Positions 21,645-50,845 of a stretch of 64,000 bases of DNA are shown here, piece by piece; positions within the stretch are counted from its first letter, which is position 1; every line of letters begins with the position of its first letter. The notes below the pieces were generated by a model. It searched no databases. It was given only the letters and a program-made list of their open reading frames with translations, and was not told where the DNA came from. The translations under genes were made by a program, and so were the position numbers. The stretch lies in the IMG/VR virus record IMGVR_UViG_3300023174_003073, positions 62,001 to 126,000 of that record. One strand, 5' to 3'. This stretch comes from a virus.

Positions 21645-21833
21645 TTATTCGTGTATATCCTGTACACTCTCTACGGCATTTTCATACCCACGCTCGTAGT
21701 CCTCAGCGTCTGCCTCTGCATTTTCTACATTAGCATATGGGTTAAAAAATTCTTCATTTGCTAATCCTGATGCATAACCCTGCATATAGGGTGCTTCTGC
21801 ATATAGTTCTATTTTTACTTTTTTCTTAGCCAT
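21645..21833 (-). CDS. Small acidic protein, unknown function
   Basis: A 62-residue protein starting MAKKKVKIELYAEAPYMQGY, with EEFFNPYANVEN and DYERGYENA. The G-Y-A-x-G-L ... E-E-F-F-N-P-Y pattern is seen in small phage proteins. It overlaps the upstream gene's last base. Confidence 0.6.
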   Translation of the reverse strand: MAKKKVKIELYAEAPYMQGYASGLANEEFFNPYANVENAEADAEDYERGYENAVESVQDIHE

Positions 21834-22435
21834 TATTCTTCTTCCTTTTTAGGTCCTTCGTATGGTCTATCAAAAGGCCATTTAGCAGTTTCTACTGTGT
21901 TAGCTACCGGATCACCGAACGGCCAAGCTGCTGTGGAATTTAGCGGCCATGTACCTATAGGATGTGGTGTTTTAGATTCTACTGGTTCTTTATCTGCCAT
22001 AGTTTCTTTAATTTTTTCACCATTAACTTCTTCGCCAGTATCTTCATTAACAAGTAACAACGGACCATGAAACCAGAATTCAGTGTCATCGTTAGTCCAA
22101 CCTAATTCTTCTACGCCCTCGTAGTAATTTTCGTCCCAGGCTTCGTTGAATGCTTCTAAATCTTCTTCAGTACAATTTCTGCCTGCTTCGGTGTCAGCCC
22201 AGCAACCATCCATCATTTCTTCCATTTCCCAGCATACATCATCATCAATGTAGCCAAGTTCATAGCCATCTTCATTTACTAATTCTTCATCAGTTAATGG
22301 ACGTTCATCACATTCAACATAGAATGTTCCCCAACGAAAACCTTCTTCACGGATAATTACTTTATCACCGTTAGTCCAAATTTGTCGTTCAATCGCACTT
22401 TTCTTGTAGTAGTTTGATAATTTCCAAGTTGCCAT
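21833..22435 (-). CDS. Acidic protein with WPF repeats
   Basis: A 200-residue, highly acidic protein. The conserved core has GYELGYIDDDVCWEMEEM and FNEAWDENYYEGVEELGW, a recurrent phage family. The C-terminal 40 residues repeat W-P: GTWPL, AAWPF, AKWPF. A WPFP also occurs in the membrane protein at the left edge. The tail may be a docking motif; no enzyme motif is visible. Confidence 0.7.
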   Translation of the reverse strand: MATWKLSNYYKKSAIERQIWTNGDKVIIREEGFRWGTFYVECDERPLTDEELVNEDGYELGYIDDDVCWEMEEMMDGCWADTEAGRNCTEEDLEAFNEAWDENYYEGVEELGWTNDDTEFWFHGPLLLVNEDTGEEVNGEKIKETMADKEPVESKTPHPIGTWPLNSTAAWPFGDPVANTVETAKWPFDRPYEGPKKEEE

Positions 22436-22444
22436 GTTTACTCC

Positions 22445-23620: not shown

Positions 23621-23823
23621 ACTCTTGCGTCAGCATCCCAAGAATTTTTAGGCCACTTGCCTGTCAATTGTTTTTGATGTTGGCGATATACATAACTACG
23701 CATATCGTACAAACTTGCCTCATCAAACTTGTATCCAAAGTCAACACAGAACTCCTTGTATTTTTCAAGGTCTTCAAAGATTTGATGAACTTTAGGATTA
23801 GGTTGAAAAGTTGGTTTTGCCAT
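23617..23823 (-). CDS. Small phage protein adjacent to the glycosyltransferase
   Basis: A 68-residue protein with FQPNPKVHQIFEDLEKYKEFC and FDEASLYDMRSYVYRQ, a conserved phage family. Overlap with the transferase suggests a shared role or shared mRNA; the function is unknown. Confidence 0.7.
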   Translation of the reverse strand: MAKPTFQPNPKVHQIFEDLEKYKEFCVDFGYKFDEASLYDMRSYVYRQHQKQLTGKWPKNSWDADARV

Positions 23824-23834
23824 TGTATTACCTC

Positions 23835-24284
23835 TTAGATTGTGACCGTTAAGTTTGGTCGTTTAGTGTTATAGTAAATTGAACATCCGTTCTCTCCATC
23901 TTCTGAGACTTCGATTTGAATGTCACGGTCTGGATAACGACTTGCAATAACCTCATAAAGGTCATCACTAATCATTTCACAGCTTTTGTTATTCAACTCA
24001 AGTATACCTCGAAATAAACTTTCAAGCCAACGCTTGAATTGAATGAACTCTATATCCCGATCATTATGCGTTACTTGAATGCCAACTCGGAAATGAAATA
24101 TATGACGATGCGGTGTGCTTAAAAAGCTAACATCATATTCGTCACCTGTTGCTAATGCAGGATCGTGACCTGCTTGTGGATAGCAATGAATACCTTCTTT
24201 TTGAAAAGTAACCCAGATAAATCTGTTTGCTACTGTACGAATACGTTCACGCTGTTCTGCTAATGCTTGTTCTCTTTGTTCCAT
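23835..24284 (-). CDS. T-fold-like candidate beside dpdA
   Basis: A 149-residue protein without an assigned family. Its layout resembles T-fold enzymes (QueD, QueF, FolE): an H-x-H pair in STPHRHIFHF (H59, H61), then DRDIEFIQFKRWLESL, then SCEMISDDLYEV and IQIEVSEDGENG. The position of the glutamate, the C-E motif and the strand order fit, but the identity is by eye only. The gene lies between dpdA and the glycosyltransferase, so it could act on the deazaguanine precursor. Similar proteins occur in other phages without known function. Confidence 0.5.
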   Translation of the reverse strand: MEQREQALAEQRERIRTVANRFIWVTFQKEGIHCYPQAGHDPALATGDEYDVSFLSTPHRHIFHFRVGIQVTHNDRDIEFIQFKRWLESLFRGILELNNKSCEMISDDLYEVIASRYPDRDIQIEVSEDGENGCSIYYNTKRPNLTVTI

Positions 24285-24285
24285 T

Positions 24286-24510
24286 TTAAAAAGTCCTGTT
24301 TAATGTTGCCCATGTGAGCCATTGATGAAATGTTTTATATACCATTTCTGCCTCATATTCATCTTGTGGTATCTTCACACCACGAATATAAAAACCATCG
24401 GGAGAAATCCTCAACATTTCACTATTAGTAGATGACCTAAATGTAATTGTATTTTTCATTTCCATATGTGTGATAGGTGCCGCTTGTGTTTCTTGTATCA
24501 TAAAAGTCAT
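24286..24510 (-). CDS. Small conserved protein, ATGA-coupled to dpdA
   Basis: A 74-residue protein with the segment MLRISPDGFYIRGVKIP and a C-terminal KTFHQWLTWA helix. The D-G-F-Y-x-R-G-V pattern recurs in small phage proteins. It starts in an ATGA overlap with the dpdA stop. Unknown function. Confidence 0.65.
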   Translation of the reverse strand: MTFMIQETQAAPITHMEMKNTITFRSSTNSEMLRISPDGFYIRGVKIPQDEYEAEMVYKTFHQWLTWATLNRTF

Positions 24511-25988
24511 ACAAACTCAAACAATTCGTTAAACTTAGTCAATGAGTTAACAGTTTTCTTGCCACTCATACCTTGACTACCACTTTGCATTTGCTTCCAT
24601 AGATTACTATGTGCATCAATAACATCATGGCTAGCTTGTCTAGTCTTTTGTGCAAATACATCATCAATAACTTGTTTGAATGTTAGTCCAGACAAATCAT
24701 GTTTAAGCATTGCAGGTATAACACCTGTTTCATACTTACGATTAGCTTCTTGAACCGCAGTCATATGCTGATAGACATTATGACTTTGTAACAATGTATA
24801 ACTCAAAGTATCCCAACTCGTTTTAGTTTCTTTACCATGTTGACCAATGAAGCCTTGCCCTCGATAGCACAAGTCCTTCATTAGTAGTTTATCAGTTACT
24901 GGACTATCTGTAAAGACTTTATGGATGCCGTCAGCCAAAACTCCGTCTCTAAACTTACGGGTATCTGTAGCATAGTCTTTATTCTCAGCAGTTTTCTCCA
25001 TACTGTATGACCATTTCTTCTCATGTTCAATACTGTTATTGAAATATGCCAAACCTTTAGCCGCACTAAAGAATGGGCTAGCACAGTCAAATGTAATTTG
25101 TAGTTTTGGGTTGTGGTTTTTACGAATAGCTTTTTGAATATCAGTGAACAATACGGCATACTCAAGTATTGACACACCCAAACAGTGAATCAAGTCATGT
25201 TTACCTTCTTGTAGTAAACCATCATATATGATATCAACCATTCTACGCAACATCAAATGTACATCAATCTTTGTTTGTCCACCGAATGCCCAACCATTGA
25301 AATGATTATCTGGATAGATGTTTGGGTCGCAGTATTTCTTCATTTCATCATACCATTTATCACTATCAGTATGAGTACGACCTTGCAATACGTTTAGAAA
25401 CTTACACTTACCATTACGATTCTTAATAAAGTATTCGTTGTTGATATGGGTAGCACTGATTGCTTGTTCAATAGTACTGATACCGTGCAATGAAACACCG
25501 TTCTTGTCCTTCATGTCAAAAGTAGTTGTAGATTGTGAAGGGATATCTAAACACATACCATAGTCCATGTATGTGTCCATCCAGTTCAATACTGCTTTAC
25601 GCTTGACCATAGCACGGGGACAATTAGGATCCTTCCAATCAGCTGGCCATTGACCTTTAAGAATCTGAAATCCACCTGAATCACCTAAAATGAATGTACC
25701 TTCTTCACGTTTACGAATGATACTTTCATTATGGTCAACTTTGTTTGTATCTAAGTTAGCATGACCAGCAGAATACAAGCCCCATTTGTATGTGTATAGA
25801 CCTTCTTTACTGTTTAAGAAGTTTAGTTTCTCTACATCACCATTGAAACTTGCAGGTATACGTGCTAAGTCAAAGTAAGGTTCACCCTCACGTTGCTTAC
25901 CCAAGCCAGAAATATAGAAACTACTGACTGCGGGTAAGAACAATGCCCATTCAGGGTCATGTTGATTAGACAGGTTGATGTTGGACAT
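24507..25988 (-). CDS. dpdA: DpdA-like DNA guanine transglycosylase
   Basis: A 493-residue protein of the tRNA-guanine transglycosylase superfamily. FILGDSGGFQI at 99-109 holds the first catalytic Asp (D103) and TFDCASPFFSA holds the nucleophile-position Asp (D301). Supporting motifs are LNVLQGRTH near 200 and WAFGGQTK near 234-240. The C-x-C-x-x-C zinc site of bacterial Tgt is not visible. With folE, queD and queE nearby it is best read as the enzyme that inserts a 7-deazaguanine base into phage DNA, protecting it from restriction. Confidence 0.85.
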   Translation of the reverse strand: MSNINLSNQHDPEWALFLPAVSSFYISGLGKQREGEPYFDLARIPASFNGDVEKLNFLNSKEGLYTYKWGLYSAGHANLDTNKVDHNESIIRKREEGTFILGDSGGFQILKGQWPADWKDPNCPRAMVKRKAVLNWMDTYMDYGMCLDIPSQSTTTFDMKDKNGVSLHGISTIEQAISATHINNEYFIKNRNGKCKFLNVLQGRTHTDSDKWYDEMKKYCDPNIYPDNHFNGWAFGGQTKIDVHLMLRRMVDIIYDGLLQEGKHDLIHCLGVSILEYAVLFTDIQKAIRKNHNPKLQITFDCASPFFSAAKGLAYFNNSIEHEKKWSYSMEKTAENKDYATDTRKFRDGVLADGIHKVFTDSPVTDKLLMKDLCYRGQGFIGQHGKETKTSWDTLSYTLLQSHNVYQHMTAVQEANRKYETGVIPAMLKHDLSGLTFKQVIDDVFAQKTRQASHDVIDAHSNLWKQMQSGSQGMSGKKTVNSLTKFNELFEFV

Positions 25989-26346
25989 GAGTCTCTTTTC
26001 TAATTAGTGTTTGAACCATTTTGATTTGATGTTGCTTGTCTTTAACTTGTTGTAGTAAATCATTGATGGCAACATTATCTTTTGCTAGTTGTTCTATTTC
26101 ACGTTCTTCACGTATTTTGTCACGTGCCCAGTCTAAGATTTGTTCAGCCTCAGGATTTAATCCAACATAGTAAGTACCCAAGTTAAGATGTTGCCAGCTA
26201 TTGCCATTGTATACTTCTAAACGTTGAAGGTTAATGTTATACTGTAATTGCCCAACACTCATGTAATTACTGTTGTTGATATAGTTACTAGCAGGACCGC
26301 CAGTAACTGCAATATACTTACCAGTTTGACTGATATTACCTATCAT
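25966..26346 (-). CDS. Conserved phage protein, unknown function
   Basis: A 126-residue protein. The N-terminal half is beta-rich (NINLQRLEVYNGNSWQHL), the C-terminal half a charged coiled coil (DWARDKIREEREIEQL). Such two-part proteins are frequent near the T4-like replication genes. The start is an ATGA overlap with the clamp gene. Confidence 0.65.
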   Translation of the reverse strand: MIGNISQTGKYIAVTGGPASNYINNSNYMSVGQLQYNINLQRLEVYNGNSWQHLNLGTYYVGLNPEAEQILDWARDKIREEREIEQLAKDNVAINDLLQQVKDKQHQIKMVQTLIRKETHVQHQPV

Positions 26347-31534: not shown

Positions 31535-33004
31535 TTATTGAAATATTTCTGGATGATTCTTGCCGTAAATCTTAATGTATTTACCTGCAAGCATATCAGC
31601 CATTGCTTCGACTGGGCTACCCGGGTAGCTGTCATCAGGCCCAATCATATTTAATTGATCCTGTCTGTGATGTACTAATTCATGGAAGATTGTACGGAAG
31701 ATATCAACCATATTTCTATTCTCAATGTACACCCAAATCTTACCATCACTAGTATGTAATCCTGTGTGATGACCTTTTTGTGCTTGTTCGCTATCAGTAC
31801 TTAAGGTAATCATTGGATATGGTTCTTTGATATGTAAACGCTTAATACACCATTTTATAAAATCATTAACTTGTTGTATTTCTTCATCAGTGTTAATACC
31901 TTCAGCAATTTGACCTCCCCATTGCTTTACCGGTGTGCGTACTCTTTGTTTTTCTTCTTCACGTTCTTTATCAAGTTTAGCTTGTTTTTGTTGTGCTAAT
32001 TCATACTCACCAAAACCATGATATACTTTTTGTTTAAGTGTATTGTTGTTCTTATCCATTTTAGCAAGCTCATGTCTCATTTGAGTAAGAGTTACTTCTT
32101 CTAATTCATCTTCACCTAATCTATCTTTAAGTTTCTTTACCCATGTATCCGGTGTATGCCCGTATTTTTTAACAAACATATCATGTAACTCATCACCTGT
32201 GATATTATAACGACCGCTAATGCGTTGCATTAGATTGTCAATGGTGCTGTAATCATATTTTTTCAATGCAGGTAACTTATCGGCTAAATCACTTACTGCT
32301 GATTCAGCCACTGCTGTTTTCTTTTTCAATGACTTTACGGGAGACTTACGTACTTTAGGTGCATGTGCTACATTCAATCGTTGTTGTGCGGTACTCATTA
32401 ATGAGAATACTTCTTCATCACTTAATGCATCAGGCATATCTCTACGCCATACTGCAAACTTCAGTTCTTCGTTAGGCATGTTAGCATACTTTGGATTGCT
32501 TGCTTTGAATTTTTCTGGATCAAGTAATACTTCACGCATTGGTGTTGCTCTTGGACCTTCAATCTTTTGCGCTGGATCATTGACTTGTTGTCTTGCTATA
32601 ATTTTTAAACTATTCAATCCATAGTTCTTATAAGGAACATTGCCAGCTTTATCTTGGTTTAATAACCATTGAAATGATTGTACTTCTTTTTCACCTACTA
32701 TCAAAATAACATTTTTATATTGTTTACCTACATCACTTAATACTTGTCCAAGTGTTTGTCCAAAATGAAATATACCTGCTTGTTTAGGAAATACTTTTTT
32801 GTATGTTGATAATTTTTCTTCTGGTGTTAATGGATCTTCTTTGCCCATTGTTTTTGATACAAAGAAAAATGGTGTTGCATTCATTTGTTCTGCGTGTACA
32901 ATAACTGCTCTTGCTAACAACATATGACCTTTGTGGCCCATACCACGACCCCAACCAACTACGGCTGTGCTTTGTGTTGCTTCATTAAATTCTGTGTATC
33001 TCAT
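31535..33004 (-). CDS. Nucleotidyltransferase-zinc peptidase fusion, head cargo candidate
   Basis: A 489-residue, two-domain protein. Residues 1-200 are a HIGH-type nucleotidyltransferase (GMGHKGHMLL, with H24/H27; a later RATPMRE in place of the usual second motif). The C-terminus has HELVHHRQD (HExxH at 441-445) and a glutamate at about 466 (VEAMADM), the HExxH...E zinc site of a gluzincin-like peptidase. Between them is a charged, coiled-coil linker. The start MRYTEFNEA at 33004, in an ATGA overlap with the next gene, is preferred to an upstream TTG. The N-terminus resembles a T4 capsid-targeting leader. Confidence 0.8.
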   Translation of the reverse strand: MRYTEFNEATQSTAVVGWGRGMGHKGHMLLARAVIVHAEQMNATPFFFVSKTMGKEDPLTPEEKLSTYKKVFPKQAGIFHFGQTLGQVLSDVGKQYKNVILIVGEKEVQSFQWLLNQDKAGNVPYKNYGLNSLKIIARQQVNDPAQKIEGPRATPMREVLLDPEKFKASNPKYANMPNEELKFAVWRRDMPDALSDEEVFSLMSTAQQRLNVAHAPKVRKSPVKSLKKKTAVAESAVSDLADKLPALKKYDYSTIDNLMQRISGRYNITGDELHDMFVKKYGHTPDTWVKKLKDRLGEDELEEVTLTQMRHELAKMDKNNNTLKQKVYHGFGEYELAQQKQAKLDKEREEEKQRVRTPVKQWGGQIAEGINTDEEIQQVNDFIKWCIKRLHIKEPYPMITLSTDSEQAQKGHHTGLHTSDGKIWVYIENRNMVDIFRTIFHELVHHRQDQLNMIGPDDSYPGSPVEAMADMLAGKYIKIYGKNHPEIFQ

Positions 33005-34164
33005 AATTTCTTTGGTGCCCAATTTTCTTGGTCAATTAATTTTAAGAATTGACCGGGTAATGGATATTTAAAGTTAATCTCAGGATGTGCTTGTACATAT
33101 CCTTCTGGATTAGTTTGCATTATACCACCATGTAATCCTAAACTTAATGACTTAATTAATTGCATTTTAGCTCTAGTAAGTCCTTCAACTGCACCAAGTA
33201 CAGTCTGATAACCTTTTTTATCTGCTAACATACCGTGTGCTTGACCTTCACTTAGATTAGCTTGTGCCCATTGTGGGAAGTCTCTTACTAATCCATCTTT
33301 TCTTAAATGACTATTTAGATATGTGTAAAGTATACCACTTGGTCTAGACAAACCTTTCTTAGGTGATAGATACGTATCAATAATTTGTGCATTACCACTA
33401 ATAAATTGTTCCATCTTATCAATATAACTTGTATCAACACCTGGCATTTCTTCAACGTAAGTTGTGCCCTGTACTAAAACATCATTCGTAGATAAACTTT
33501 CTGCATTAGGAAATCTTTGTTCATCGCTACTACCTAAGGTAGCATAGTAACCAGTTGCGGCGACCATTAACTTTGCACCGCTTGCTATTTTTTTACCTAA
33601 ATTACTACCAACTGGAATATGAAAACCAGTGATGTTAGGTTTGAAGTCGTATGTGTTTGTGTTCTTATTAAGAATTGGCATTGCACTTTCACCTGTTGGT
33701 TTAGTACCTGGATAGAACAATAAGCCACCTTCTAAGAATCCTTTTTGTGGACTAATCTTCTCAAAGTATTGCCACATACCTGAAAATTGTTTTGCAAACT
33801 GTACTCTACTTTTATCATTAGGATCAGCATTGCCTGTACCCATTACAAAAGCATAAACATCTTTTGCACTATTCATTACTGTTGGTGCACCACTGCTTGT
33901 TTGTGTCTTACCTGATTTCAAATATGCCCATGCATTCTTTGGTATCATTCTAAAAGTGCCATTCTCATCACGACCCCAGTATACAACTGGCATGCCGTCC
34001 CATTTCAATTCAATAGAGTCATAGTTATCAACCATGTGCTTCATACGTTCAGCCGCATGTAATCCGCCACCACTTCCGTTTGTGACTACAAGGTCTTCAA
34101 TGTGTTGGTACTTACGACCAACTGCAGGACCTGCGGCTTCAAGTAATAAATCACTTACTCTCAT
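33001..34164 (-). CDS. Ligase-like (KxDG) head protein
   Basis: A 387-residue protein. ELKWDGMPVVYWG (K54-W-D-G57) resembles motif I of DNA/RNA ligases, and GFLEGGLLFY resembles a later acidic motif. The remainder has no clear match. It starts MRVSDLLLEA (leader-like, with cleavage-type LLE) at 34164, in preference to an upstream ATG at 34194. The next gene's stop overlaps its start. A covalent nucleotidyl-transfer reaction is plausible; activity is unproven. Confidence 0.65.
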   Translation of the reverse strand: MRVSDLLLEAAGPAVGRKYQHIEDLVVTNGSGGGLHAAERMKHMVDNYDSIELKWDGMPVVYWGRDENGTFRMIPKNAWAYLKSGKTQTSSGAPTVMNSAKDVYAFVMGTGNADPNDKSRVQFAKQFSGMWQYFEKISPQKGFLEGGLLFYPGTKPTGESAMPILNKNTNTYDFKPNITGFHIPVGSNLGKKIASGAKLMVAATGYYATLGSSDEQRFPNAESLSTNDVLVQGTTYVEEMPGVDTSYIDKMEQFISGNAQIIDTYLSPKKGLSRPSGILYTYLNSHLRKDGLVRDFPQWAQANLSEGQAHGMLADKKGYQTVLGAVEGLTRAKMQLIKSLSLGLHGGIMQTNPEGYVQAHPEINFKYPLPGQFLKLIDQENWAPKKL

Positions 34165-34849
34165 TTTTTCTCTTATGTATAAATTGTTCAGCAATCATTA
34201 CTAATTCATGTAATTCTTCTATACTTTCACAATGCCATCTACGAAGGCTTTTGTTAATATTACTATTTGGATCATGTGCAGTCTTAGCACTTGTACGATG
34301 TTTCTTCATGCCCTTCATTCTAGCACAGAAACTTGCACGGCGTTTAGCACTCTTGCTACCTTTTTTCAATTTGCTTGGCTTTGTAGTAACAGCAGTTTGA
34401 ATTTTACTACCGGGATGTTCTCTACGATAACTGTTAACAGATTTTTGACTCATGCCACCTGCTCTTGGATTATTGTGTTTACTCCAGTTCTCACCTTCAT
34501 TCATGCCTTGTAATTCTTCTGCTGGCCAACTCATATAGCTGTTACCATTCACATCACCTGATTGTACAACAAACACACCCGGCTCGTCATCGTAGCCTTC
34601 GTCTTGTCCAATTTCCCAACCTGCGGCTGCAAGAGTTTGTTCGATGCGTGGATCCTCATCACCGTGATACCACTGTGCAGCCATACGCTTGAGTGTTTCA
34701 TCATCAAACCCATCGTCGCCGTCTCCGCCGCCAGGGGGTGCGAATTCATTTATGCCTTTAGGCTTTTGATGTTTTGCCTTCATTGCGATAGCAGTAGCAG
34801 CCTGTTGTTTAGGGTTGGCTGCTTCAGTTATAAATTCATGCATTCTCAT
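34151..34849 (-). CDS. Basic head protein with capsid-leader N-terminus
   Basis: A 232-residue protein starting MRMHEFITEAANP, which fits the T4 capsid-targeting leader and ITE-type prohead cleavage. The central part is basic (KKGSKSAKRRASFCARMKGMKK) and the sequence GGMSQKSVNSYRREHPGS is a common phage signature of unknown function. Probably packaged with DNA. Confidence 0.75.
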   Translation of the reverse strand: MRMHEFITEAANPKQQAATAIAMKAKHQKPKGINEFAPPGGGDGDDGFDDETLKRMAAQWYHGDEDPRIEQTLAAAGWEIGQDEGYDDEPGVFVVQSGDVNGNSYMSWPAEELQGMNEGENWSKHNNPRAGGMSQKSVNSYRREHPGSKIQTAVTTKPSKLKKGSKSAKRRASFCARMKGMKKHRTSAKTAHDPNSNINKSLRRWHCESIEELHELVMIAEQFIHKRKNESK

Positions 34850-35607
34850 TTTAACATCTCCATTGTTCTACGAAACCATTCGGTTACATTTGGTGTGGCT
34901 TGCTGCCAACTATGACCGGCACGTGCCATATTCATAATTTCTTCTTTGCGTCTTTTGTCAGGTATCTTTGCCATAATAGATTCTACACTACCCAAGTCAG
35001 AACCTTTTGCACCTCTACCTAATAAGTATTGAGCAATCATATCCCAATCATCAGCTAATAAATCTGACTTTTTACCTGCCGCATCACGTTTGTATAAACC
35101 CTCGTCAGGACTCCATAACATACCTTGTGTACTAGCAAGTGCGTTCATCACTAGCTGTTTGTTAACACCTTTATAAGGACTACCTTGTGGAATTTCATGT
35201 CTGTGAAACTGTGCCACTTTATGAGCATTCTTAACAACTTTGATATCAACTTGATAAAACTTACCACTCATTGGTATTTTACAATGAACAGTTACACCTG
35301 CTAGTCTAGTTTCAATATTTTGTTTATTAAGAAAAGCTGCCAATGCTTTGCGAGTAGTTGATGAATCTGCTGTATTAAACTGTTGCATTAATGTAGTTAA
35401 TTCTACCATTGAATCTAAGTCATTTGATGGTACAGCATTTCCATTGGCATCGTAGCGTGGCTTCCAGCATGATCCAATAACCTCTAATGTGACGCCCAAG
35501 GGTTCTAGATATTTTTGTGTAGTTTCGCTTAGTGGTTTTCCGACAACAGACGGGTCAAAGTTAGTTTCAACGTCTGGCCAAATATTGCCACCTTCTAATA
35601 AAATCAT
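34846..35607 (-). CDS. Nucleotidyltransferase-fold protein
   Basis: A 253-residue protein starting MILLEGGNIWPD. GSCWKPRYD at 45 and NDLDSM at 62-67 with a later YQVDIKVV give the G-S ... D-x-D ... D pattern of pol-beta-type nucleotidyltransferases. The late-promoter box at 35631-35638 lies between this ATG and the earlier in-frame ATG at 35832, so the shorter protein is chosen. Possible substrate: tRNA, a nucleotide or protein; not assignable. Confidence 0.7.
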   Translation of the reverse strand: MILLEGGNIWPDVETNFDPSVVGKPLSETTQKYLEPLGVTLEVIGSCWKPRYDANGNAVPSNDLDSMVELTTLMQQFNTADSSTTRKALAAFLNKQNIETRLAGVTVHCKIPMSGKFYQVDIKVVKNAHKVAQFHRHEIPQGSPYKGVNKQLVMNALASTQGMLWSPDEGLYKRDAAGKKSDLLADDWDMIAQYLLGRGAKGSDLGSVESIMAKIPDKRRKEEIMNMARAGHSWQQATPNVTEWFRRTMEMLK

Positions 35608-35630
35608 GGTAAAAATCCTGAGTAATAGAG

Positions 35631-35638
35631 TATTTATC
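35631..35638 (-). promoter_or_regulatory. T4-type late promoter box
   Basis: Minus strand GATAAATA followed by CTC. It sets the 5' end just upstream of the start at 35607. Confidence 0.6.
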
Positions 35639-35639
35639 T

Positions 35640-35803
35640 CAGAAAGGATATTGCTCACTTTTGAGTCCACGGTAGCGAATCGCTTTCTCAGCCCAGCAGC
35701 CGGGCCACACGGTCCTAAGGTAGGTGTGTTCTTAGACGGGACTATATGGATTACGGGGTCTATCCGTTCCATCGTCCTCAGGGTATACAGGGTAATCGTT
35801 TGG
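35640..35803. other. GC-rich structured non-coding segment
   Basis: About 160 bases between the gene ending at 35805 and the late box. The composition is richer in G+C than all neighbours. Local hairpins are present: GCCCaGC / CCGGGC types, and CACAC...GTGTG around a CCTAAGG core. The plus strand at 35709-35723 carries ACGGTCCTAAGGTAG, which is identical to part of a conserved 23S rRNA segment. No tRNA or known protein can be fitted to it. Confidence 0.5.
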
Positions 35804-35804
35804 G

Positions 35805-36827
35805 TTACATAACATAAATATTTCCTACACATCCTCTTAAAACTTCAGCAAAGTATTCAGTTAAATCATCACCGATACCCTGTGATTCATATTGTCTTGT
35901 ATCTTCGTCACGAAACTCTGATTTTAGATTAAGATACTTACTTGGGTTACCCCATGCTTGACGACCATAACCTAAGTTAGTTGGTAATGGGTTTAATGTG
36001 ATTGTTCCTGTACCTAAATATTGTGCAAATAATTCATATAAGAATTCATATGGACGTTTGATTTCATTACTGCGACTGCTACGCTGTGTTCCAATAGCAT
36101 TGAATAATGCATTATATTCTGGTGTTAGATTCCAAGACATACCGCTTCGTGCAGGACGACCATATTGGTCTTTTGCTACTTTACCATAACAACGTTCTAA
36201 CACTTGATTAACTGTGTTAAAGAAATATTGTTCTGCTTCGGGCCATGCACCTGATTTACTTGCACCAACATTACGATGACCTGCTTGAATAGCATGACCA
36301 AATCTATGTGCCATGATCCATGGTGTCATCATTACTTTGCTATCACCTTTATTACCCACAAACACTACAGTGATAGCATCTTCACTACCATCAATAATTT
36401 GTTGTGCTTCTTTACCAAATACTTGTTGAAGTACTTCAGCCTTCATAGGTCCATATTCACTGTAACGTCCTGTACCAGGAATGTTACTAAAGAACAATCT
36501 AAAATCGTAAGGGGTTTTCTCTAAGAATCTTTGTGTCTTTAGTTGATTAGTTGGATGAGGTACTAATCTTTTATCAACACCTCTGAATGGACCTGGCTTT
36601 TCAAAATCACCCATAGGAGTGAACTGTTTAAGAGCCATCTCATCAACAGTATCAGTTTGTATTGATTCTGAAATTGACTGCACATTGTCTTTTCCATATA
36701 ACTTAACTAACAACTGTCTTGCTTGACCCTGAGACTCAGCATGAATTATTGTTTTGATTGAGGAGCCATTAACTTTTACAGTTACTTTGAACTTTTTTAA
36801 TGGAGATGAGACTTCATCGAGGCGCAT
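35805..36827 (-). CDS. HRxGH (degenerate metallopeptidase) head protein
   Basis: A 340-residue protein starting MRLDEVSSPLKK. A central PWIMAHRFGHAIQAG has His/His in peptidase spacing with Arg replacing Glu of HExxH, so it may be inactive or use another base. Other parts are unassigned (PFRGVDKRL, PYEFLYELFAQYLG). It follows the Dps gene with an eight-base gap and is probably a head or cargo protein. Confidence 0.65.
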   Translation of the reverse strand: MRLDEVSSPLKKFKVTVKVNGSSIKTIIHAESQGQARQLLVKLYGKDNVQSISESIQTDTVDEMALKQFTPMGDFEKPGPFRGVDKRLVPHPTNQLKTQRFLEKTPYDFRLFFSNIPGTGRYSEYGPMKAEVLQQVFGKEAQQIIDGSEDAITVVFVGNKGDSKVMMTPWIMAHRFGHAIQAGHRNVGASKSGAWPEAEQYFFNTVNQVLERCYGKVAKDQYGRPARSGMSWNLTPEYNALFNAIGTQRSSRSNEIKRPYEFLYELFAQYLGTGTITLNPLPTNLGYGRQAWGNPSKYLNLKSEFRDEDTRQYESQGIGDDLTEYFAEVLRGCVGNIYVM

Positions 36828-36835
36828 TGGGTATT

Positions 36836-37276
36836 TTACTCACGTTCTTTTTTAAGAATGCTACGAACCATCCAAGCCTTCTTACCATAGAAGTCTTGTA
36901 GTTCTGCCATGTAGTTAGCAATACCTTGTTGACGTTCTTGTGTTGCAATGTCAAACATACCAACAACAAGTTCAACCATCTTTTCAATATCTTGTTGAGT
37001 TTCCATGAACATTAATTCAGCACGTGGAATTTTTGTTTGGTCTTGAATGATTGATAGTTCTGCATAACGTGTTAAACTTGCAGGCGCATAACTATCCAAT
37101 ACTCTGATATACTCAGCAATCTTATCTACTGTTTCATATGTATCATTGTATAACGAATCATAAAATGCGTGATATTGAGGGAAATTACTTCCTTCAATAT
37201 TCCAATGAAAGTTGCGTGATTTCAATGAAAATGCTTCTGTTGAAGCTAATAATACTTTTAAGTTGTCTGCTAACAT
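36836..37276 (-). CDS. Dps-like ferritin
   Basis: A 146-residue Dps-type protein. The ferroxidase residues H24 (FHWN), H36 (YHAFYD), D51 and E55 (TVDKIAEYI) have the same spacing (12, 15, 4) as E. coli Dps H51-H63-D78-E82. It would bind iron and DNA as a 12-mer and protect against oxidants. Within a head-gene module, it might be packaged or protect phage DNA in the host. AAAAAAGGATTAAC selects the ATG at 37276; a TATAAATG box lies about 70 bases upstream. Confidence 0.9.
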   Translation of the reverse strand: MLADNLKVLLASTEAFSLKSRNFHWNIEGSNFPQYHAFYDSLYNDTYETVDKIAEYIRVLDSYAPASLTRYAELSIIQDQTKIPRAELMFMETQQDIEKMVELVVGMFDIATQERQQGIANYMAELQDFYGKKAWMVRSILKKERE

Positions 37277-37387
37277 GTTAATCCTTTTTTTATTTAGCTG
37301 GCGGGTTGCCTTTGAATCTACTATAGAAATCAAACACACCTCTATCCATTTATATTTAAATCCCTAAATAAAATAATTCGTAGTTCT

Positions 37388-38638
37388 TTAGTGTCTTAGT
37401 AATAGAGTACTAAGTACGCCAGGGTCGTTTGCACTTACATCACCTTCGCCTGGTGCAACAATAACATTGTATTTCAATCCTGTATTTTTACCTTTGCTCA
37501 TATACTCATCATATGATAAGATGCTATTTGCACTAATGTTATATGCTTTTGCTAATCGTTGTTTTAATTCTGGTAATTTATCAGATTGAACTTGCCACTG
37601 ACCTTCGCCACCTTTAACTAGATTACCTTTTTGATCCTTAACTAATAAGTCTTGGAACATGTCATCAGGTACAATACGACTATTTTTAGTTTTATCTAAG
37701 TTAGGGTCAGCCGCCTTAACTTGTTTTTCTTGACTTGTGCTAGCCCCTTCGCTCCAGTTAATAATGAAGTTAGATGGTTTACTAGCCAGGGCCGCGCCCG
37801 CTATTTTTGTATAAGCATAGAATTTAACATCTGGATGTTGTTTTGCCATTTTCATAGCTAAATCAAAATATTCTGGGCTAAAGAAGTCACCAGCATCATG
37901 CCAACGAATTGTAACTGCATAGCCACCCTTCTTACCTAACTGTTCTTCTTTACGAATCTCTGAACTTAGTGTTTCAAAAAATCCGTTTGGGTCATTCAAT
38001 AAGAATGTTAATATACGACCATCACTTAGCCATGCAGCCTTGAATTGAACTTTACCACCTTTCATTGCAAAGCAATCTACTTTACAACTACCAGCACCCG
38101 GGCATGTATTTACAATGATTAGTTTATTAGTTGATTCATCAACTGCAACACCAGTCAATGCCGCAAAGCCAACATTAAAGAATTGTTCTAAGTCACCGTT
38201 ACTATGCTTCATCTTTTCGTTTTGCTTTAGTAACTTTTTAGGACGAGTTTTTAATGCATCAACTACTGCTTCTTCTTTAAATCGTTTGCCAGCTTCGTCA
38301 TAGAATTCAATTGCACTACTACGATGTATGTAGGGCATTTTATACTTGTCAGTTTTAGTTTTGCCAGTGGTATACTTTGCAATACCCTTCTTGTCTACTT
38401 TAACTTGACCAGTCTTCTTGTCTATATCATCTGTACCTTTGATACGTGTCATATAGTCTTGAAACTCTTGTCCACCTAGTTCACGACTTTGTGCTGGTAA
38501 TGCAGTTGCTTCATCTACTTCTTGTTCAGGTTCACTACCTTCTTGACCTGCAAACTGTTGCGGTGTCATTACTTTAATGCCAGATACCGCACCTGGTAGT
38601 TTTGGCTCTGCGCCTTCGTATAGTTCTGTTATTTTCAT
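37388..38638 (-). CDS. Gp88-family protein with capsid-leader N-terminus
   Basis: A 416-residue protein. CPGAGSCKVDCFAMKGG (C179, C185, C189) and RWHDAGDFFSPEYFDLAMKM with FYAYTK match the Gp88 domain, a phage family of unknown function. N-terminal MKITELYEGA fits a capsid-targeting leader with an LYE cleavage site. It probably acts in the head or as injected cargo. The metal or cofactor bound by the cysteines is unknown. Confidence 0.8.
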   Translation of the reverse strand: MKITELYEGAEPKLPGAVSGIKVMTPQQFAGQEGSEPEQEVDEATALPAQSRELGGQEFQDYMTRIKGTDDIDKKTGQVKVDKKGIAKYTTGKTKTDKYKMPYIHRSSAIEFYDEAGKRFKEEAVVDALKTRPKKLLKQNEKMKHSNGDLEQFFNVGFAALTGVAVDESTNKLIIVNTCPGAGSCKVDCFAMKGGKVQFKAAWLSDGRILTFLLNDPNGFFETLSSEIRKEEQLGKKGGYAVTIRWHDAGDFFSPEYFDLAMKMAKQHPDVKFYAYTKIAGAALASKPSNFIINWSEGASTSQEKQVKAADPNLDKTKNSRIVPDDMFQDLLVKDQKGNLVKGGEGQWQVQSDKLPELKQRLAKAYNISANSILSYDEYMSKGKNTGLKYNVIVAPGEGDVSANDPGVLSTLLLRH

Positions 38639-39969
38639 TTAGCTGACTTTCTTAATGCGTCTGCTGTTGGCGCGCCTTTGCTACCTGGCTTACGCATATG
38701 TTCTCCACTACCATGTTTGATACGTTCACGTTTAGCATGTATATTAGCCCATAGACCTTTGCTTTCTTCGTCTACAGTTTTCTTTAGTCCTGGTACTTCA
38801 TTCTTAAGCACACTCATTGCTCGGTGTAGGCTACCATAAGAATCAATGTGTTTACCATTAGCGTGAATCATAAAATCATCTCCAGATTGTATGATTTCAT
38901 ATTTGCCTCCATTGTCTCCTGTACCACTGAACACAACTTGTCCTCCCATGCCTTCCGCTACATTTTTTTTGTTTTTGTTATCCAACATGCCACGCTTGTT
39001 AGCAGTTGCCCATGCAATATTCTCTGCTTCTTTATCACTGTGTCCTAATTTCTTTTCACTAGACTTAACATGCTTAACCATACGGTCAACTTTAGCACCT
39101 TCCGCCATGCCTGTAGCAAATGTATTTTTTTGACCTGTCGTTGTTTTATCTTGAGGTTGTCCTCCCATTGGAGCAGAAATAGTATAGTTTCCGATCTTAG
39201 TGTAACTTTGGTGTGCTAATTGATTTTTAATATTTTGTGGTTGACCTAATTTATATTTTTGAGCTGCCACAGATAGATTGACAGTATCTAAAATATTGCC
39301 TTTAAGGTCTTGAACTACAATAACAGGATCAGGGGTATTAAATTCTAATTGTCCTTCATCCATGTCCTGTGTATAAACATTACCACGCTCATGTTGACTA
39401 ATCATATAATCCATAACAGTTACAATCATTGATTTACATACAGCAATCTTTTCTTGTACCCATTCAGGTAAATTCTCGTCTGCTTGTAATTCTTTGCCTA
39501 AGTGTGTTGAAACTCTAACGATTGTGTGTAGATTGTTTTGAACCATATCTATCTCGTCATTGTATTCACCGCCACCATTAAATTCTTCTTTTGCCATGAT
39601 TTCACGATCACTTGGTTTATTACCAATATCACGTGGTTTGGATCTTTTAAATAATTCTTCTCGTCTTTTCTTTGCTTGTAGTTGTTCTTCACTTAAGTCA
39701 TCTTCATTTATAGCATCTTCACTGATGCCGGCTTTTCTGCTATTAGCATATTTCTCACTAATCTTGATACCTTTAAGTAAATCACTGCCTTTTTTACTAC
39801 GTCTTTGAACACCCATATTAGTTGGGGTTCCTGTAGACATAACACCGGCTGTTGTAGTGCTTGCACCTGATTCTAGCATTTCGTCACTGCGTCCAAACTT
39901 AGGTCCAGGGGTCGGTGCAGATGGGGCCGAAGCAGGTGTAAGATTTTCTTGTAAATGACTGATTTTCAT
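38635..39969 (-). CDS. Multidomain head-associated protein
   Basis: A 444-residue protein starting MKISHLQENL (leader-like, LQE). It has a charged, low-complexity region to 130, a middle domain (LPEWVQEKIAVCKSMI), EGAKVDRMVKHVKSSEKKLGHS-type and GLWANIHAKRERIKHGSGEHM-type segments (shortened), and GMLDNKNKKN. These short modules recur in many phage proteins. Likely a scaffold or internal protein. Late box at 39992-39999. Confidence 0.7.
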   Translation of the reverse strand: MKISHLQENLTPASAPSAPTPGPKFGRSDEMLESGASTTTAGVMSTGTPTNMGVQRRSKKGSDLLKGIKISEKYANSRKAGISEDAINEDDLSEEQLQAKKRREELFKRSKPRDIGNKPSDREIMAKEEFNGGGEYNDEIDMVQNNLHTIVRVSTHLGKELQADENLPEWVQEKIAVCKSMIVTVMDYMISQHERGNVYTQDMDEGQLEFNTPDPVIVVQDLKGNILDTVNLSVAAQKYKLGQPQNIKNQLAHQSYTKIGNYTISAPMGGQPQDKTTTGQKNTFATGMAEGAKVDRMVKHVKSSEKKLGHSDKEAENIAWATANKRGMLDNKNKKNVAEGMGGQVVFSGTGDNGGKYEIIQSGDDFMIHANGKHIDSYGSLHRAMSVLKNEVPGLKKTVDEESKGLWANIHAKRERIKHGSGEHMRKPGSKGAPTADALRKSAK

Positions 39970-39991
39970 AAGATAAATTCCGTATATCTTA

Positions 39992-39999
39992 TATTTATC
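39992..39999 (-). promoter_or_regulatory. T4-type late promoter box
   Basis: Minus strand GATAAATA followed by TAAG, 23 bases before the ATG at 39969. Confidence 0.55.
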
Positions 40000-40024
40000 A
40001 TAAATCCTAAACTTGGTATACTAA

Positions 40025-42829
40025 TTAAAGAGCCGCTATTCTTGTCTGAAAATCAGCAAAATCAGTACTATCTGCCACTAAAGTTTTTAGTGATGATAAG
40101 CTAATATACTGGGATGCACCGGTACTATTTTTAATATCACCACCTGCCGGTAATGTTAAATTACCAGTCATGTCAAATACCCATGTATTTTTACTACCTG
40201 TTGGATGGTTAAAGTTAGTAGTTAATTCTGCATTTGATGAACCTATAATAAATTGTGTAGTCTTTTGACCAACATTACTATCGTAATTTACAAATGATAA
40301 CCCTGTACCACCCCCTGTTGTTGCATTATAAACTTCAAAGTTTAAGTCGTTATCTTCTTCTGCAACAATATCACCGGGAACAGTTAATATACCATCTAGG
40401 CCAAACTGCCAAGTGTTGAATACTGTGCCAGAATTGTCTACACTGGTTTGTACATAGGCACCGTCACCTTGAACAAAGAATTGTTGATAACCTGTACCAC
40501 CGTTGCTTATTCCTGCTCCTTCGCCTGGAGCACCGTAGATAAATCCACCAGCAACTCCAGAACCATCCGGCAATGTCAATGTACCATCTGTGCCAAAAGT
40601 CCACTGATTATTATTTTCGTTAGTACCAATAAGAACATTACCACCGTTCTTTTCAATCTTAACATACTGGTCGTCATCGCCCAAGTACATGTCAGTGATT
40701 GACGGATCACCTGCTATTAAATGAATATGATGGTCTTCACTACTACCACTTCTTGTTAGTGTAAGCGGTGATATCAATCCACCAATACTAAACCCTACAG
40801 CATTGCTAAGGGTGATAGTGAAAGTTGTCATAGTACTTGAAACTGGTATAGTCCAAGTTATTTGTTTAGAAGGCTCATTAGTAAATGTCAATGTGCCTGT
40901 TAACGCTCTACCTAATTGTTGTTGAGTACAATCAGTAAATGTATAGTCTACTGTTCCAGTAACTGGAGTAAGGCTATAATCAGGAACTATGGTTAATGTA
41001 ATAGTATCACCGTCAGTAAATCCACCTGGATGATCGGAAGTAATTCCTTGAGCTCCTGTTAAGCGAACTACTAAACTCTGTCCAGCTAATGCATTCGGCG
41101 GTGTGATGGTTGTTGAGTTGGCCGTTTCACTTAAGATAGTACCTTTAGGTAACACTAAATTACCAGTGGTAACAAAAGTAAATTCTACTGCAGGGCTTGC
41201 CGATGGCGAAAACCCAATCTTAACATTACCATTTGTACTAGCCATTGTAGTATCACTGAATGTAATATTACCGGTGTTTGCACCACCGCCTCCACCTAAT
41301 ACACTATTACCTGTACTGTCTCTGATATCACCACCTACTGGTAGATTTAATATACCGTTGTCATCGAAACTCCAAACATGGTCACCATCATGTGTCTTAA
41401 CATAAAGACCATCACCATGCTTTAACCATAAATCAATACCACCTGAACTACCATTGCCTGCCCAGTCAGTATAGATATCAATATCAGCAGTAGTACCATA
41501 AGGTGTATTAATTTCAATATTACCGTTGTTGAATATATTACCAGTCGTTACACTATTAAATTGTGTATTATTGGCTGTGTTCAAGTCTTGGTCAAATATA
41601 TTTGTGATAGCTGTTAAATAGCTACTTAAATTAGGTGGAGTATATGTGAATACACCAGTTGAATTGGCATATGATAAATCACCACTACCATTTGCTGTAT
41701 TTGATGTAGTAACACTTAAATCTGTTAATGCTATACCGCCGGCACCTAACAAATTAGTTGCATCTGCTAAATTAGCAATATCAGTTGGTATAGCACTCGT
41801 CAATGCAAATCCACTAACATCAGGTATCACCGGTGGAGTATATGTAAATACACCGGTTGAATTGGCATATGATATATTGCCGCTACCATTTGCTGAATTT
41901 GGTGCACCAACACTAATATCTGTTAATGCTATACCACCTCCGCCCAACAAGCTAGTCAAATCAGTTAGATTCGCAACATCTGTAGGAATAGTTGGTTTAC
42001 CACTTAAATTAGCCCATGTGATATTTGCAACAGTATTAGATAGTGTTGATAAATTAGCAGTTGTTGCATAATTATCAATATTAGGTGCACCACTTAAATT
42101 AGCCCAACTAATATTTGCTACTGTATTACTTAAATTTGTAACACTAATAACACTTGCTTTATTTGCTAATGAATTAGTAATAGAAGTCGAGAAACTTGCA
42201 TCGTTGCCTAATGCATTTGCTAATTCATTTAATGTGTTTAACACATTAGGTGAACTATCTACTAGCGTAGCAATAGCATTACCAACATAATCAGTAGTAG
42301 CAATATTTCCAGGAACATCAACTAAATTAGCATAGCTAACATTAGCCCATACTTGATTAATACCATTGCTCTTTAAGAATTTACCACTATTCCCTGCATC
42401 TGATGGGAATGCACTTTCCCATGACAATGTTCCGGCACCGTCTGTTTTCAATACATTGTTGTAGCTTCCACCACTAATAGTTAAATTACTAATTGAGGAT
42501 AAATTAATACGGGTAGGATTTAATTGTGTAACATTTAATGTACCAGTTGTCAACGTATCTGTACTAGGGACATATGTTAGTCCACCGTCGCCGGTATAAG
42601 AACCACCAAAGTTAAATTGAACCTCACCATTTGCACCACCGGGGGGATTTATTGTGTAAATGTTTTTAACAATTTGCACCGAAACTGTTTCGGTTGTTGA
42701 TGCTGTTCCGGTAGTTGTAGTACCGGTGGGAAGTATAACAGGCTGTAATGTTTTAGGACTAAACGTAGTTAATCCTGGATCAGATCCTACATCAATATTT
42801 GCTGGTTGTATTGGGGTTGTTCTTTTCAT
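40025..42829 (-). CDS. Large repetitive virion protein (fibre-like)
   Basis: A 934-residue, Asn/Thr/Ser/Gly-rich protein. It has repeating W-A-N-L-S-G motifs and a duplicated ANSTGVFTYTPP block. The C-terminal half has blocks with G-x-L-x-L-P and T-F-G-x-D-G-x-L typical of tail-fibre or tail-spike repeats. AAGGAAATAGAGA precedes the start. It would be a structural tail or neck-fibre protein. Confidence 0.75.
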   Translation of the reverse strand: MKRTTPIQPANIDVGSDPGLTTFSPKTLQPVILPTGTTTTGTASTTETVSVQIVKNIYTINPPGGANGEVQFNFGGSYTGDGGLTYVPSTDTLTTGTLNVTQLNPTRINLSSISNLTISGGSYNNVLKTDGAGTLSWESAFPSDAGNSGKFLKSNGINQVWANVSYANLVDVPGNIATTDYVGNAIATLVDSSPNVLNTLNELANALGNDASFSTSITNSLANKASVISVTNLSNTVANISWANLSGAPNIDNYATTANLSTLSNTVANITWANLSGKPTIPTDVANLTDLTSLLGGGGIALTDISVGAPNSANGSGNISYANSTGVFTYTPPVIPDVSGFALTSAIPTDIANLADATNLLGAGGIALTDLSVTTSNTANGSGDLSYANSTGVFTYTPPNLSSYLTAITNIFDQDLNTANNTQFNSVTTGNIFNNGNIEINTPYGTTADIDIYTDWAGNGSSGGIDLWLKHGDGLYVKTHDGDHVWSFDDNGILNLPVGGDIRDSTGNSVLGGGGGANTGNITFSDTTMASTNGNVKIGFSPSASPAVEFTFVTTGNLVLPKGTILSETANSTTITPPNALAGQSLVVRLTGAQGITSDHPGGFTDGDTITLTIVPDYSLTPVTGTVDYTFTDCTQQQLGRALTGTLTFTNEPSKQITWTIPVSSTMTTFTITLSNAVGFSIGGLISPLTLTRSGSSEDHHIHLIAGDPSITDMYLGDDDQYVKIEKNGGNVLIGTNENNNQWTFGTDGTLTLPDGSGVAGGFIYGAPGEGAGISNGGTGYQQFFVQGDGAYVQTSVDNSGTVFNTWQFGLDGILTVPGDIVAEEDNDLNFEVYNATTGGGTGLSFVNYDSNVGQKTTQFIIGSSNAELTTNFNHPTGSKNTWVFDMTGNLTLPAGGDIKNSTGASQYISLSSLKTLVADSTDFADFQTRIAAL

Positions 42830-42846
42830 TCTCTATTTCCTTCTTA

Positions 42847-43713
42847 TTATGCTCTCAGTACTGGGGGAATACCCGCACGACTTATTTTACTTCCTAATTT
42901 CTTAGCATTCTGTTGCATTGTAAATGGAGTGATATCTACTGTTAATGCAGTCATCCAACGTCTATCATTCTTCTGACTTGGACTTGGAATATATCCACTA
43001 GACTCAGGCAAACTTAATCGTTGACTATGCAATAATTGTAATTTCTCGTATAATTTCTTAATTATACCTTTATTGCGTAATGCTTTAAATGCGATATTCT
43101 CAGGGCCAAATTCGCCATGAAAATCTAATCCAATTTTTCTGTATTTTTTAATGGTCTTGATTATTTTACTAATCTTTTCTGAATCATTCGACTTTAATGC
43201 ATACTGCGCTAATTTATATAGTTTACGATATTTTAATTTAGTTGCTAACTGGTCAAAGTCTGCTTTGCGTTTTCTTGGTAATTTCAACCATTTATCATTC
43301 ATTACTGAATATTCACCAAGACTGATTACGGGTTCGTTGCTATCCTGTACATATAATTCTACTTCATATCCATTAATTAATATATCGTGGCTATCATTAT
43401 AAACTGTCTTTTTAGCGTCAAATAATTCACGGTAAACATCATCTTCACTAAATTGTGAAATATCTACTAATATGTGTAAATCAATGTCGCTTAACTCAGT
43501 ATAGCTATAGGCTGCATTACTTCCAGAGACTGTGATATCTTCTATGGCTAAATCTGGTAATCCTAGATGTTCTATGAAGTCATTAGCAATCAATAATAGT
43601 TGCTCTCTGACATATCCTTTCATGTTATCCCCGTCAAATATGGCAGGATTTAGATGTTCATGGAAACGAACCGCGTCGGACATTTTAAAACTGTTTAACT
43701 CATTAAATTGCAT
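42847..43713 (-). CDS. Nucleotidyltransferase-fold head protein
   Basis: A 288-residue protein. SGSNAAYSYTELSDIDLHILVD (shortened) gives GS at 64-65 and D-x-D at 76-78, the pol-beta/minimal nucleotidyltransferase pattern. The start MQFNELNSF is close to a capsid leader. A TATAAATA box ends four bases before the ATG, so the mRNA would be nearly leaderless. Its substrate is unknown. Confidence 0.75.
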   Translation of the reverse strand: MQFNELNSFKMSDAVRFHEHLNPAIFDGDNMKGYVREQLLLIANDFIEHLGLPDLAIEDITVSGSNAAYSYTELSDIDLHILVDISQFSEDDVYRELFDAKKTVYNDSHDILINGYEVELYVQDSNEPVISLGEYSVMNDKWLKLPRKRKADFDQLATKLKYRKLYKLAQYALKSNDSEKISKIIKTIKKYRKIGLDFHGEFGPENIAFKALRNKGIIKKLYEKLQLLHSQRLSLPESSGYIPSPSQKNDRRWMTALTVDITPFTMQQNAKKLGSKISRAGIPPVLRA

Positions 43714-43717: not shown

Positions 43718-43725
43718 TATTTATA
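43718..43725 (-). promoter_or_regulatory. Perfect T4 late promoter box
   Basis: Minus strand TATAAATA followed by CT, directly before the ATG at 43713 and downstream of a terminator. Confidence 0.75.
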
Positions 43726-44772: not shown

Positions 44773-45273
44773 TTATTTTTCTTCTAAATAATCTTGACTT
44801 TCTTCTAAGCGTTGGCCATACTTGTCTTTACCTAATGTATACCAGACCATATAGTCAGGATTTAAATTAGGATACTTTTGCATTAATCTGTCAATTAATG
44901 GTTGAACAGTTGAATATGGAATATTATGTGCAATATTCTGTACTTTACCCTCATGTTCTAGTTTTGGTGGTACATAGTATAAATTAACTTTAGTAGAGGG
45001 GTCTGTGAAATGAATCTTTGCTTCATCGACCTCTTGATGTCCTTCATCGGCTAATAATTTTTGCAATTCTTCATCATTAGCCAATTCCAAATCACTTACG
45101 TCATACTTGCCAGTACTAGCCAATTTATGAATTAATGCTTGACGTTCATCAAATCCTTCTTTCAATGCAACCTTCATTAGTTTCATTAATTTAAGTTTTT
45201 GTTGAGGACTAGCCTCCTTAATTAAAGGACGAATCTTTTTAATTTGTTCAGTAATTAATTTAGACTTAGACAT
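44773..45273 (-). CDS. Virion-associated protein, unknown function
   Basis: A 166-residue protein. The N-terminus is Lys-rich and helical (IKKIRPLIKEASPQQKLKLMK). The middle has GKYDVSDLELANDEELQ and the end YMVWYTLGKDKYGQRL. No family recognised. It belongs to the 43.8-45.8 kb run of short structural genes. Confidence 0.6.
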   Translation of the reverse strand: MSKSKLITEQIKKIRPLIKEASPQQKLKLMKLMKVALKEGFDERQALIHKLASTGKYDVSDLELANDEELQKLLADEGHQEVDEAKIHFTDPSTKVNLYYVPPKLEHEGKVQNIAHNIPYSTVQPLIDRLMQKYPNLNPDYMVWYTLGKDKYGQRLEESQDYLEEK

Positions 45274-50272: not shown

Positions 50273-50845
50273 TTATAATCCTGCCTTTGCAATAAAATCT
50301 TTTAATAAACTATCTTTTTCTTTGTTCATCTTAGCTGGTTCTAATCCAGCTTGCTTACGCATTTCATTTAATTCTGCGTCAATGTTTTCTTCTTTTGATT
50401 CTTCTTCACCATCTTCTGGATTAGCTTGACGATAAGTATGAGGACTTAATTCAAATAATCCCTTTAACTCTGATACATCTGCACCGTATTCTTCTCCATC
50501 AACAGTGATTGTCCAATCAGCTAATGACATATTTGTTAATGTTTCTAAATCATCAAGTAATTCAATGATACGTTGAACTGATGAGGTACGTCTTGGAATC
50601 TCAACGAATACTAAACTCTTTCCAGGAGTATATTCACCGTCACTTACTTGTGCATCAAGTATCCAATCATATCCACGCTCAAACCAATCAACTAAATCTG
50701 TGCTAGCCGCATTACCTTTTACTTTGAATGCAAGTGTGATAATTTCATCATTACTACCAGACTTTGCTTCATATTCATCAATAGACAATGTAGGAATTAC
50801 TTGTCCAACCAAATCATGATAATCTAAATTTTCAAGTAGTCTCAT
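50273..50845 (-). CDS. Conserved phage protein, virion-associated
   Basis: A 190-residue protein starting MRLLENLDYHDLVGQV. Segments WFERGYDWILDAQVSDGEY and VFVEIPRRTSSVQRI recur in phage structural regions. The start is coupled to the upstream gene by a TAATG-like junction. Role unknown. Confidence 0.65.
   Translation of the reverse strand: MRLLENLDYHDLVGQVIPTLSIDEYEAKSGSNDEIITLAFKVKGNAASTDLVDWFERGYDWILDAQVSDGEYTPGKSLVFVEIPRRTSSVQRIIELLDDLETLTNMSLADWTITVDGEEYGADVSELKGLFELSPHTYRQANPEDGEEESKEENIDAELNEMRKQAGLEPAKMNKEKDSLLKDFIAKAGL

Follow-up and report, generated by a model that had tools for sequence, protein, structure and literature searches.

In bacteriophage T4, the prohead protease gp21 cleaves after the motif L/I-x-E, in which x is free, and within the leader of the internal protein IPIII residues 4 and 7 serve in targeting whereas residues 8 and 10 serve in processing (PMC9026906). 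The virions of the cyanophages S-CREM2 and S-SCSM1 also contain enzymes, and the authors of both studies leave open whether these are cargo or carry-over (PMC10665884, PMC9602691). Here, we analyzed a window of 64,000 nucleotides (positions 62,001 to 126,000, or G000:62001-126000, of the 171-kb virus contig IMGVR_UViG_3300023174_003073), in which a run of minus-strand genes encodes proteins with short, related N-termini. We consider it quite probable that these N-termini are removable capsid addresses of the T4 type, cut by a protease of the gp21 family, and that the enzymes behind them are packed into the head and delivered with the DNA. For the phage of this contig, we infer packaging, cutting, and delivery, each of which has a precedent in T4. 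The system would be that of T4 extended to jumbo phages and to a larger, enzyme-rich cargo, an extension that has apparently gone unnoticed in the literature searched.

The leader comprises 8 to 11 residues (5 to 6 in g173) and runs from a methionine and a lysine or arginine through a hydrophobic or aromatic stretch to L/I-x-E. It would bring the protein into the prohead core during head assembly, the phage's gp21-family (S77) prohead protease would then cleave after the glutamate, and the freed enzyme would remain in the head and pass into the next host with the DNA. Judging from sequence, g171, g172, g173, g176, and g177 are likely cargo, as are g063, g102, g209, and g234 in other parts of the contig, and g170 is perhaps cargo as well. 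These genes are given below together with g174 and g179, with a slash at the predicted cut.

g171, 33001..34164, minus strand: leader MRVSDLLLE/A at 34138-34164 (ATG at 34164); DUF6267 body with an invariant KWDG
g173, 34846..35607, minus strand: ATG at 35607 behind CAGGATT; leader MILLE/GGN at 35593-35607, then IW
g172, 34151..34849, minus strand: leader MRMHEFITE/A at 34823-34849 (ATG at 34849); C-terminal DUF6321
g176, 37388..38638, minus strand: leader MKITELYE/G at 38615-38638 (ATG at 38638); Gp88 domain
g177, 38635..39969, minus strand: leader MKISHLQE/N at 39946-39969 (ATG at 39969); body without an assigned function
g170, 31535..33004, minus strand: atypical leader MRYTEFNE/A at 32978-33004, with FNE instead of (L/I)xE
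g174, 35805..36827, minus strand: start MRLDEVSS (ATG at 36827), no (L/I)xE in the first ~14 residues
g179, 42847..43713, minus strand: start MQFNELNS (ATG at 43713), no (L/I)xE in the first ~14 residues; nucleotidyltransferase-like motif GSNAAYS..DID
g063, G000:32937-35051, outside the window: leader MRAYEFITEA
g102, G000:52404-53825, outside the window: leader MRATEFITES
g209, G000:129901-130509, outside the window: leader MKTLRHYLMES
g234, G000:151450-152223, outside the window: leader MRASEFILDEG

The sequence-only reading of this stretch had listed seven related N-termini, those of g170, g171, g172, g174, g176, g177, and g179; all are present on the minus strand, each from an ATG (that of g170 is read from the ATG at 33004, downstream of the start chosen by the open reading frame [ORF] caller), and the LLE, ITE, LYE, and LQE triplets claimed in four of them are in place. 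It omitted g173, because the longest ORF conceals the true start of this gene. Its proposal of T4-style capsid-targeting leaders on enzyme-like cargo is probably right for g171, g172, g176, and g177, is not supported for g174 and g179, and perhaps applies to g170 in an atypical form. The leaders are not limited to 31.5 to 43.7 kb, as it had supposed, since they also occur on g063, g102, g209, g234, and g188, and the term "head module" does not suit genes that are scattered over a contig on which no head gene was found.

On the contig, the strict leader pattern M[KR].{2,6}[LIFV].E[AGSN], written post hoc with the N-termini already seen, matches 7/261 starts versus 3/879 internal methionines; 2000 shuffles gave 0.6 matching starts on average and 4 at most. 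Because the pattern was drawn up in this way, the relatives provide the stronger test. In the g171 family, of which 66 viral loci were collected, (L/I)xE is kept in 26 of 27 distinct N-termini that otherwise vary widely (MKLSDVLLFEA, MKFSDILNEA, MKPSEFLIEA, MKVTQVLSEA, MRSNEFLTEA, and MKIRQLISEA): cut-site position P3 is L or I, P1 is E, P1' is mostly A, and eight residue types occur at P2. All 30 distinct N-termini of the g173 family carry (L/I)xE followed by G, with ten residue types at P2, and, as judged across relatives, g173 is the best leader fit of all members. Smaller samples for g172, g176, g177, and g209 show the same trend of kept cut-site letters. Relatives of g172 begin MRVHEFITEA, MKITEIITEA, MRAKEFITEA, or MRATEFITEA, those of g176 MKIIELYEG, MNFKELLEG, or MNFTELFEG (with a MRFHEFIAEA leader on the GP88 protein of L192), and those of g177 MKISSLFEM, MRFKQIIEN, or MKINDIYES. 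Close relatives of g170 begin MRYIEFYES or MSLKQYIIEA, while others are fused to g171 or lack a leader. The g171-g170 fusion occurs in 33 ORFs (e.g., L023, L036, L037, L045, and L053), whose linkers mostly hold E-A (SVVNEA, TAITEA, SAVREA), and such a fusion is possibly a polyprotein cut by the prohead protease; if so, the E-A site would let the same protease part the two enzymes. The alternation of fused and split forms fits g171 as cargo and shows that not every g170 needs the leader.

The contig's phage belongs, by sequence, among the jumbo phages of the T4 superfamily (Atu_ph07/PA5oct-like), because the tail sheaths nearest to its own are those of Sinorhizobium phage Phosso, Agrobacterium phage Atu_ph07, and Pseudomonas phage PA5oct (41 to 46% identity over aligned parts); its ClpA, DnaJ, PhoH, and clamp-loader neighborhood is that of Atu_ph07. 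Two close relatives, G001 (260 kb) and G005 (65 kb), have genes for S77 prohead proteases, which adjoin portal-, scaffold-, and capsid-like genes that are LxE-rich near their starts, and in Atu_ph07 gp204 is an S77 protease and gp215 is a Gp23 capsid protein. S77 and Gp23 were found on 4/22 leader-bearing contigs versus 2/12 control contigs, a comparison that carries no information because the contigs are fragments. As a control, an N-terminal (L/I)xE occurs in T4 in 7/9 head proteins versus 9/56 others (P = 0.0004). In an unlikely alternative, the leader stays uncut and tethers proteins to the prohead core or to the inner capsid surface, as structural or scaffold partners rather than as delivered cargo. 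This reading would account for the leader or near-leader proteins that belong to virion-structural families (g188, phrog_13138), and it can appeal to the separability of targeting from processing residues in T4 (PMC9026906). However, P3 and P1 are the best-kept letters while other leader positions drift, most of the bodies are enzymes or belong to no structural family, and the S77 protease is present in relatives.

The T4-type address is also found in front of many unrelated proteins. Scanning IMG/VR for M-R-x-x-E-F-I-x-E-A returned at least 120 stretches, compared with 13 when ATC replaced ATG and 40 when the pattern was shifted out of frame by one base. Almost every one of the 81 matches that were read coincides with the beginning of an open frame, and in 53 of the 60 distinct leaders the third residue, which the pattern does not constrain, is A. 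In environmental viruses, leaders of the MRAxEFIxEA type head at least 20 unrelated body families, among them relatives of g170, g172, g174, and g176 and of domains of g063, as well as lysozyme-like and peptidoglycan-binding proteins. In g063 (L002:13937-16051), the canonical MRAYEFITEA is joined to GNAT-like, LysM, and GH19-like domains, and separate domains of this protein were found behind leaders in other viruses. Synonymous codons differ at every fixed leader residue; therefore, selection acts on the peptide, and recent copying of a DNA cassette is ruled out as the source of the leaders. We would give even chances to a broader proposal, that the leader is a general, transferable address in T4-superfamily phages and that carrying it suffices for a protein to enter the head, be trimmed by the prohead protease, and reach the host.

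Virion proteomes connect this address to particles. Six frames covering 172 of the 175 kb of S-CREM2 were scanned with T4 leader positions 4, 7, 8, and 10, and four frames matched, all at annotated starts:

S-CREM2 gp154: cytidylyltransferase, MKNFSSFLTE/A, in the virion
S-CREM2 gp6: S-adenosylmethionine (SAM) hydrolase, MKDFDSFLEE, in the virion
S-CREM2 gp14: kinase, MKRFDAFLTE, in the virion
S-CREM2 gp13: MKDLHSFLTE, in the virion

The published virion proteome (PMC10665884) includes every one of these products, an outcome that for this post hoc pattern has a chance of ~0.003 at the base rate of 52/219, and no undetected protein matched the leader positions. In S-SCSM1, gp91, a nicotinamide mononucleotide adenylyltransferase (NMNAT) with the leader MKSFLQFLKE/A, is a virion protein (PMC9602691); a second match, gp30, is not flagged as one. 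Over 58 kb of T4, the same scan matches only IPII and IPIII. A control on reversed sequence yielded 0 matches, but it is weak, since few long frames exist there. The window is linked to these proteomes by g170, a homolog of the virion-detected cytidylyltransferases S-CREM2 gp154 and S-SCSM1 gp91, and by g179, which shares 34.5% identity over 197 aa with S-CREM2 gp156, detected in the virion by mass spectrometry (MS). No mention of such a leader in cyanophages was found in the literature searched. Separately, the Cas9-like nuclease gp12 of S-CREM2 (L315:7704-10313), also detected in the virion, carries some 20 residues from its start the stretch FASFMAEAA, which resembles an internal leader. 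We judge it quite improbable that the proteins are ordinary cytoplasmic enzymes, with N-termini alike through chance, composition, or a recent gene-start cassette, and that their detection in cyanophage virions reflects carry-over. The first pattern was indeed post hoc, the authors of the two cyanophage studies do not decide whether carry-over occurred, and PA5oct shows no enrichment, but the shuffles, the internal methionines, and the ATC and out-of-frame controls speak against chance, the varied synonymous codons rule out a recent cassette, and S-CREM2 leader proteins were detected in four of four cases with none among the undetected proteins.

Several results nevertheless weigh against removable addresses on delivered cargo. 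Neither g174 nor g179 fits the leader pattern; g174 has ~55 extra N-terminal residues where relatives carry MRATEFITEA, its residues 58-340 aligning with L233/L186 from residue 4 onward and its residues 61-340 with L197 from residue 7 onward. At split g171/g170 loci, ten g170 genes start with a leader of their own and ~16 do not, and the homolog gp161 of P-HM1 has no leader. Portal, prohead protease (PF03420), and major capsid genes were not found on the 171-kb contig, which is for this reason judged to be probably a fragment of a genome. In Atu_ph07, strict leaders amount to 10/145 in three MS-defined virion clusters versus 5/285 outside (P = 0.008; PMC6102473), with virion status counted by cluster and not per protein, and the excess comes mostly from the single tandem run gp53-gp62 (MRWEQLTE and variants). 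The corresponding values for PA5oct, 2/83 MS-positive versus 1/145 MS-negative, do not differ significantly. The S-CREM2 pattern was written after its virion N-termini were seen, though it uses the leader positions published for T4. A leader addressed to another compartment (phage nucleus, membrane, or replication body) is hardly credible, for although short N-terminal sorting peptides are generally known from other groups of jumbo phages, T4 IPII/IPIII and the S-CREM2 virion enzymes share these leader positions, and the L/I-x-E end is the gp21 motif. The T4-style capsid address is well supported, since the cut-site letters are conserved, the leader stands on many unrelated bodies, relatives encode S77, and cyanophage virion proteomics agrees.

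The bodies behind the leaders were characterized by domain searches and structure models. For g171 (Pfam DUF6267, 44.6 bits; cut-off, 27), residues 1-19 of the model have a predicted local distance difference test (pLDDT) score of <50, i.e., they form a disordered extension of an ordered domain. KWDG is a ligase/nucleotidyltransferase-like motif that does no more than suggest a ligase: the motif is invariant, but the PDB sequence match is unconvincing and the top Foldseek ligase matches, at E 0.1, are not significant, and the model and Foldseek left the fold undecided. The g173 body is predicted to be a nucleotidyltransferase fold of the DNA polymerase-beta type (model pLDDT 89.6; Foldseek match to pol beta/lambda, E 3e-7), with residues 1-9, which cover the leader, disordered. 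No match to g173 or to a 125-aa leader family was found among annotated phages. The remaining assignments are DUF6321 in g172 (45.8 bits; cut-off, 28.5), GP88 in g176 (89.9 bits; cut-off, 24.4), and, in g170, a cytidylyltransferase-like N-terminal part and a C-terminal HExxH region (phrog_3041, E 2.9e-17).

Three further features of the window accompany these genes.

g175, 36836..37276, minus strand: ferritin/Dps-like protein within the gene run, without a leader (Pfam Ferritin, 52.4 bits)
g188, 50273..50845, minus strand: start MRLLE/N; phrog_13138 (virion structural), E 2.5e-15
TATAAATA, 43718..43725, minus strand: octamer resembling a T4 late promoter, immediately upstream of g179, where the gene run begins

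The start of g175 at MLADNLK is deduced from relatives, which begin MLxDxLK, and the g188 homologs in G001/G005 start MKQILVE/G and MRHLNE/A. The octamer may be a chance occurrence, because such octamers are fewer in the window than in shuffles and the leader genes are not enriched in them; a link between late promoters and leaders was rejected, with [TC]ATAAATA upstream of 4/68 leader genes versus 36/583 other ORFs. Near its start, MSKSKLITEQIKKIRPLIKEA, g181 (window 44773-45273) has ITE and IKEA, possibly a further leader, and few relatives of it were found. Elsewhere in the window, QueE-, QueD-, FolE-, and TGT-like genes at 18311-26000 resemble a deazaguanine/queuosine-type synthesis and suggest that the phage DNA is modified, and 59142-63863 encodes a repetitive tail-fiber-like protein of 1573 residues, antisense to which the plus strand holds long open frames. 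In Atu_ph07, the tandem genes gp53-gp62 (L009:39484-50000) start M[KR]W[EDHQN][QD]L[TNI]E inside a virion cluster, and gp53 has a zeta-toxin-like kinase domain.

Phage proteins that enter together with the DNA are active ahead of all phage gene expression, and to our knowledge few host-entering phage proteins are known outside T4, P1, N4, and the phiKZ-like phages. If our reading is correct, the leader marks, from genome sequence alone, a large and mostly unstudied arsenal of prepacked enzymes, and such proteins could be listed across T4-related phages, including jumbo phages and cyanophages. It also offers an answer to whether the kinase, SAM hydrolase, and NMNAT of cyanophage virions are cargo or contamination, as all three bear the leader.

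Compared with the known systems, the leaders are closest to those of T4 IPII/IPIII (MKTYQEFIAE/A): both have ~10 residues, a basic second residue, and F and I/L before x-E-A, and both end in the gp21 motif, the EFIxEA of T4 being letter for letter that of g172, g063, and the IMG/VR leaders. Here, however, the leader is one residue shorter, the few small T4 proteins give way to many enzymes of 200 to 700 residues, and cleavage, known in T4, is predicted from sequence. The cyanophage enzymes S-CREM2 gp6, gp13, gp14, and gp154 and S-SCSM1 gp91 share the leader at T4 positions and are detected in virions, but unlike the proteins of the contig they have leaders of full T4 length in which position 4 is F or L, and most of the bodies differ. 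Atu_ph07, which encodes S77, is like the contig's phage a T4-superfamily jumbo phage, and its gp53-gp62 are tandem virion-cluster genes with LxE after ~7 residues; the leader letters are different (W at position 3) and no shared body was found. The giant phages phiKZ and SPN3US likewise cleave numerous head proteins behind a short x-E motif, but they form a different phage group and the phiKZ motif is S/A-x-E instead of the L/I-x-E seen here (PMC9026906).

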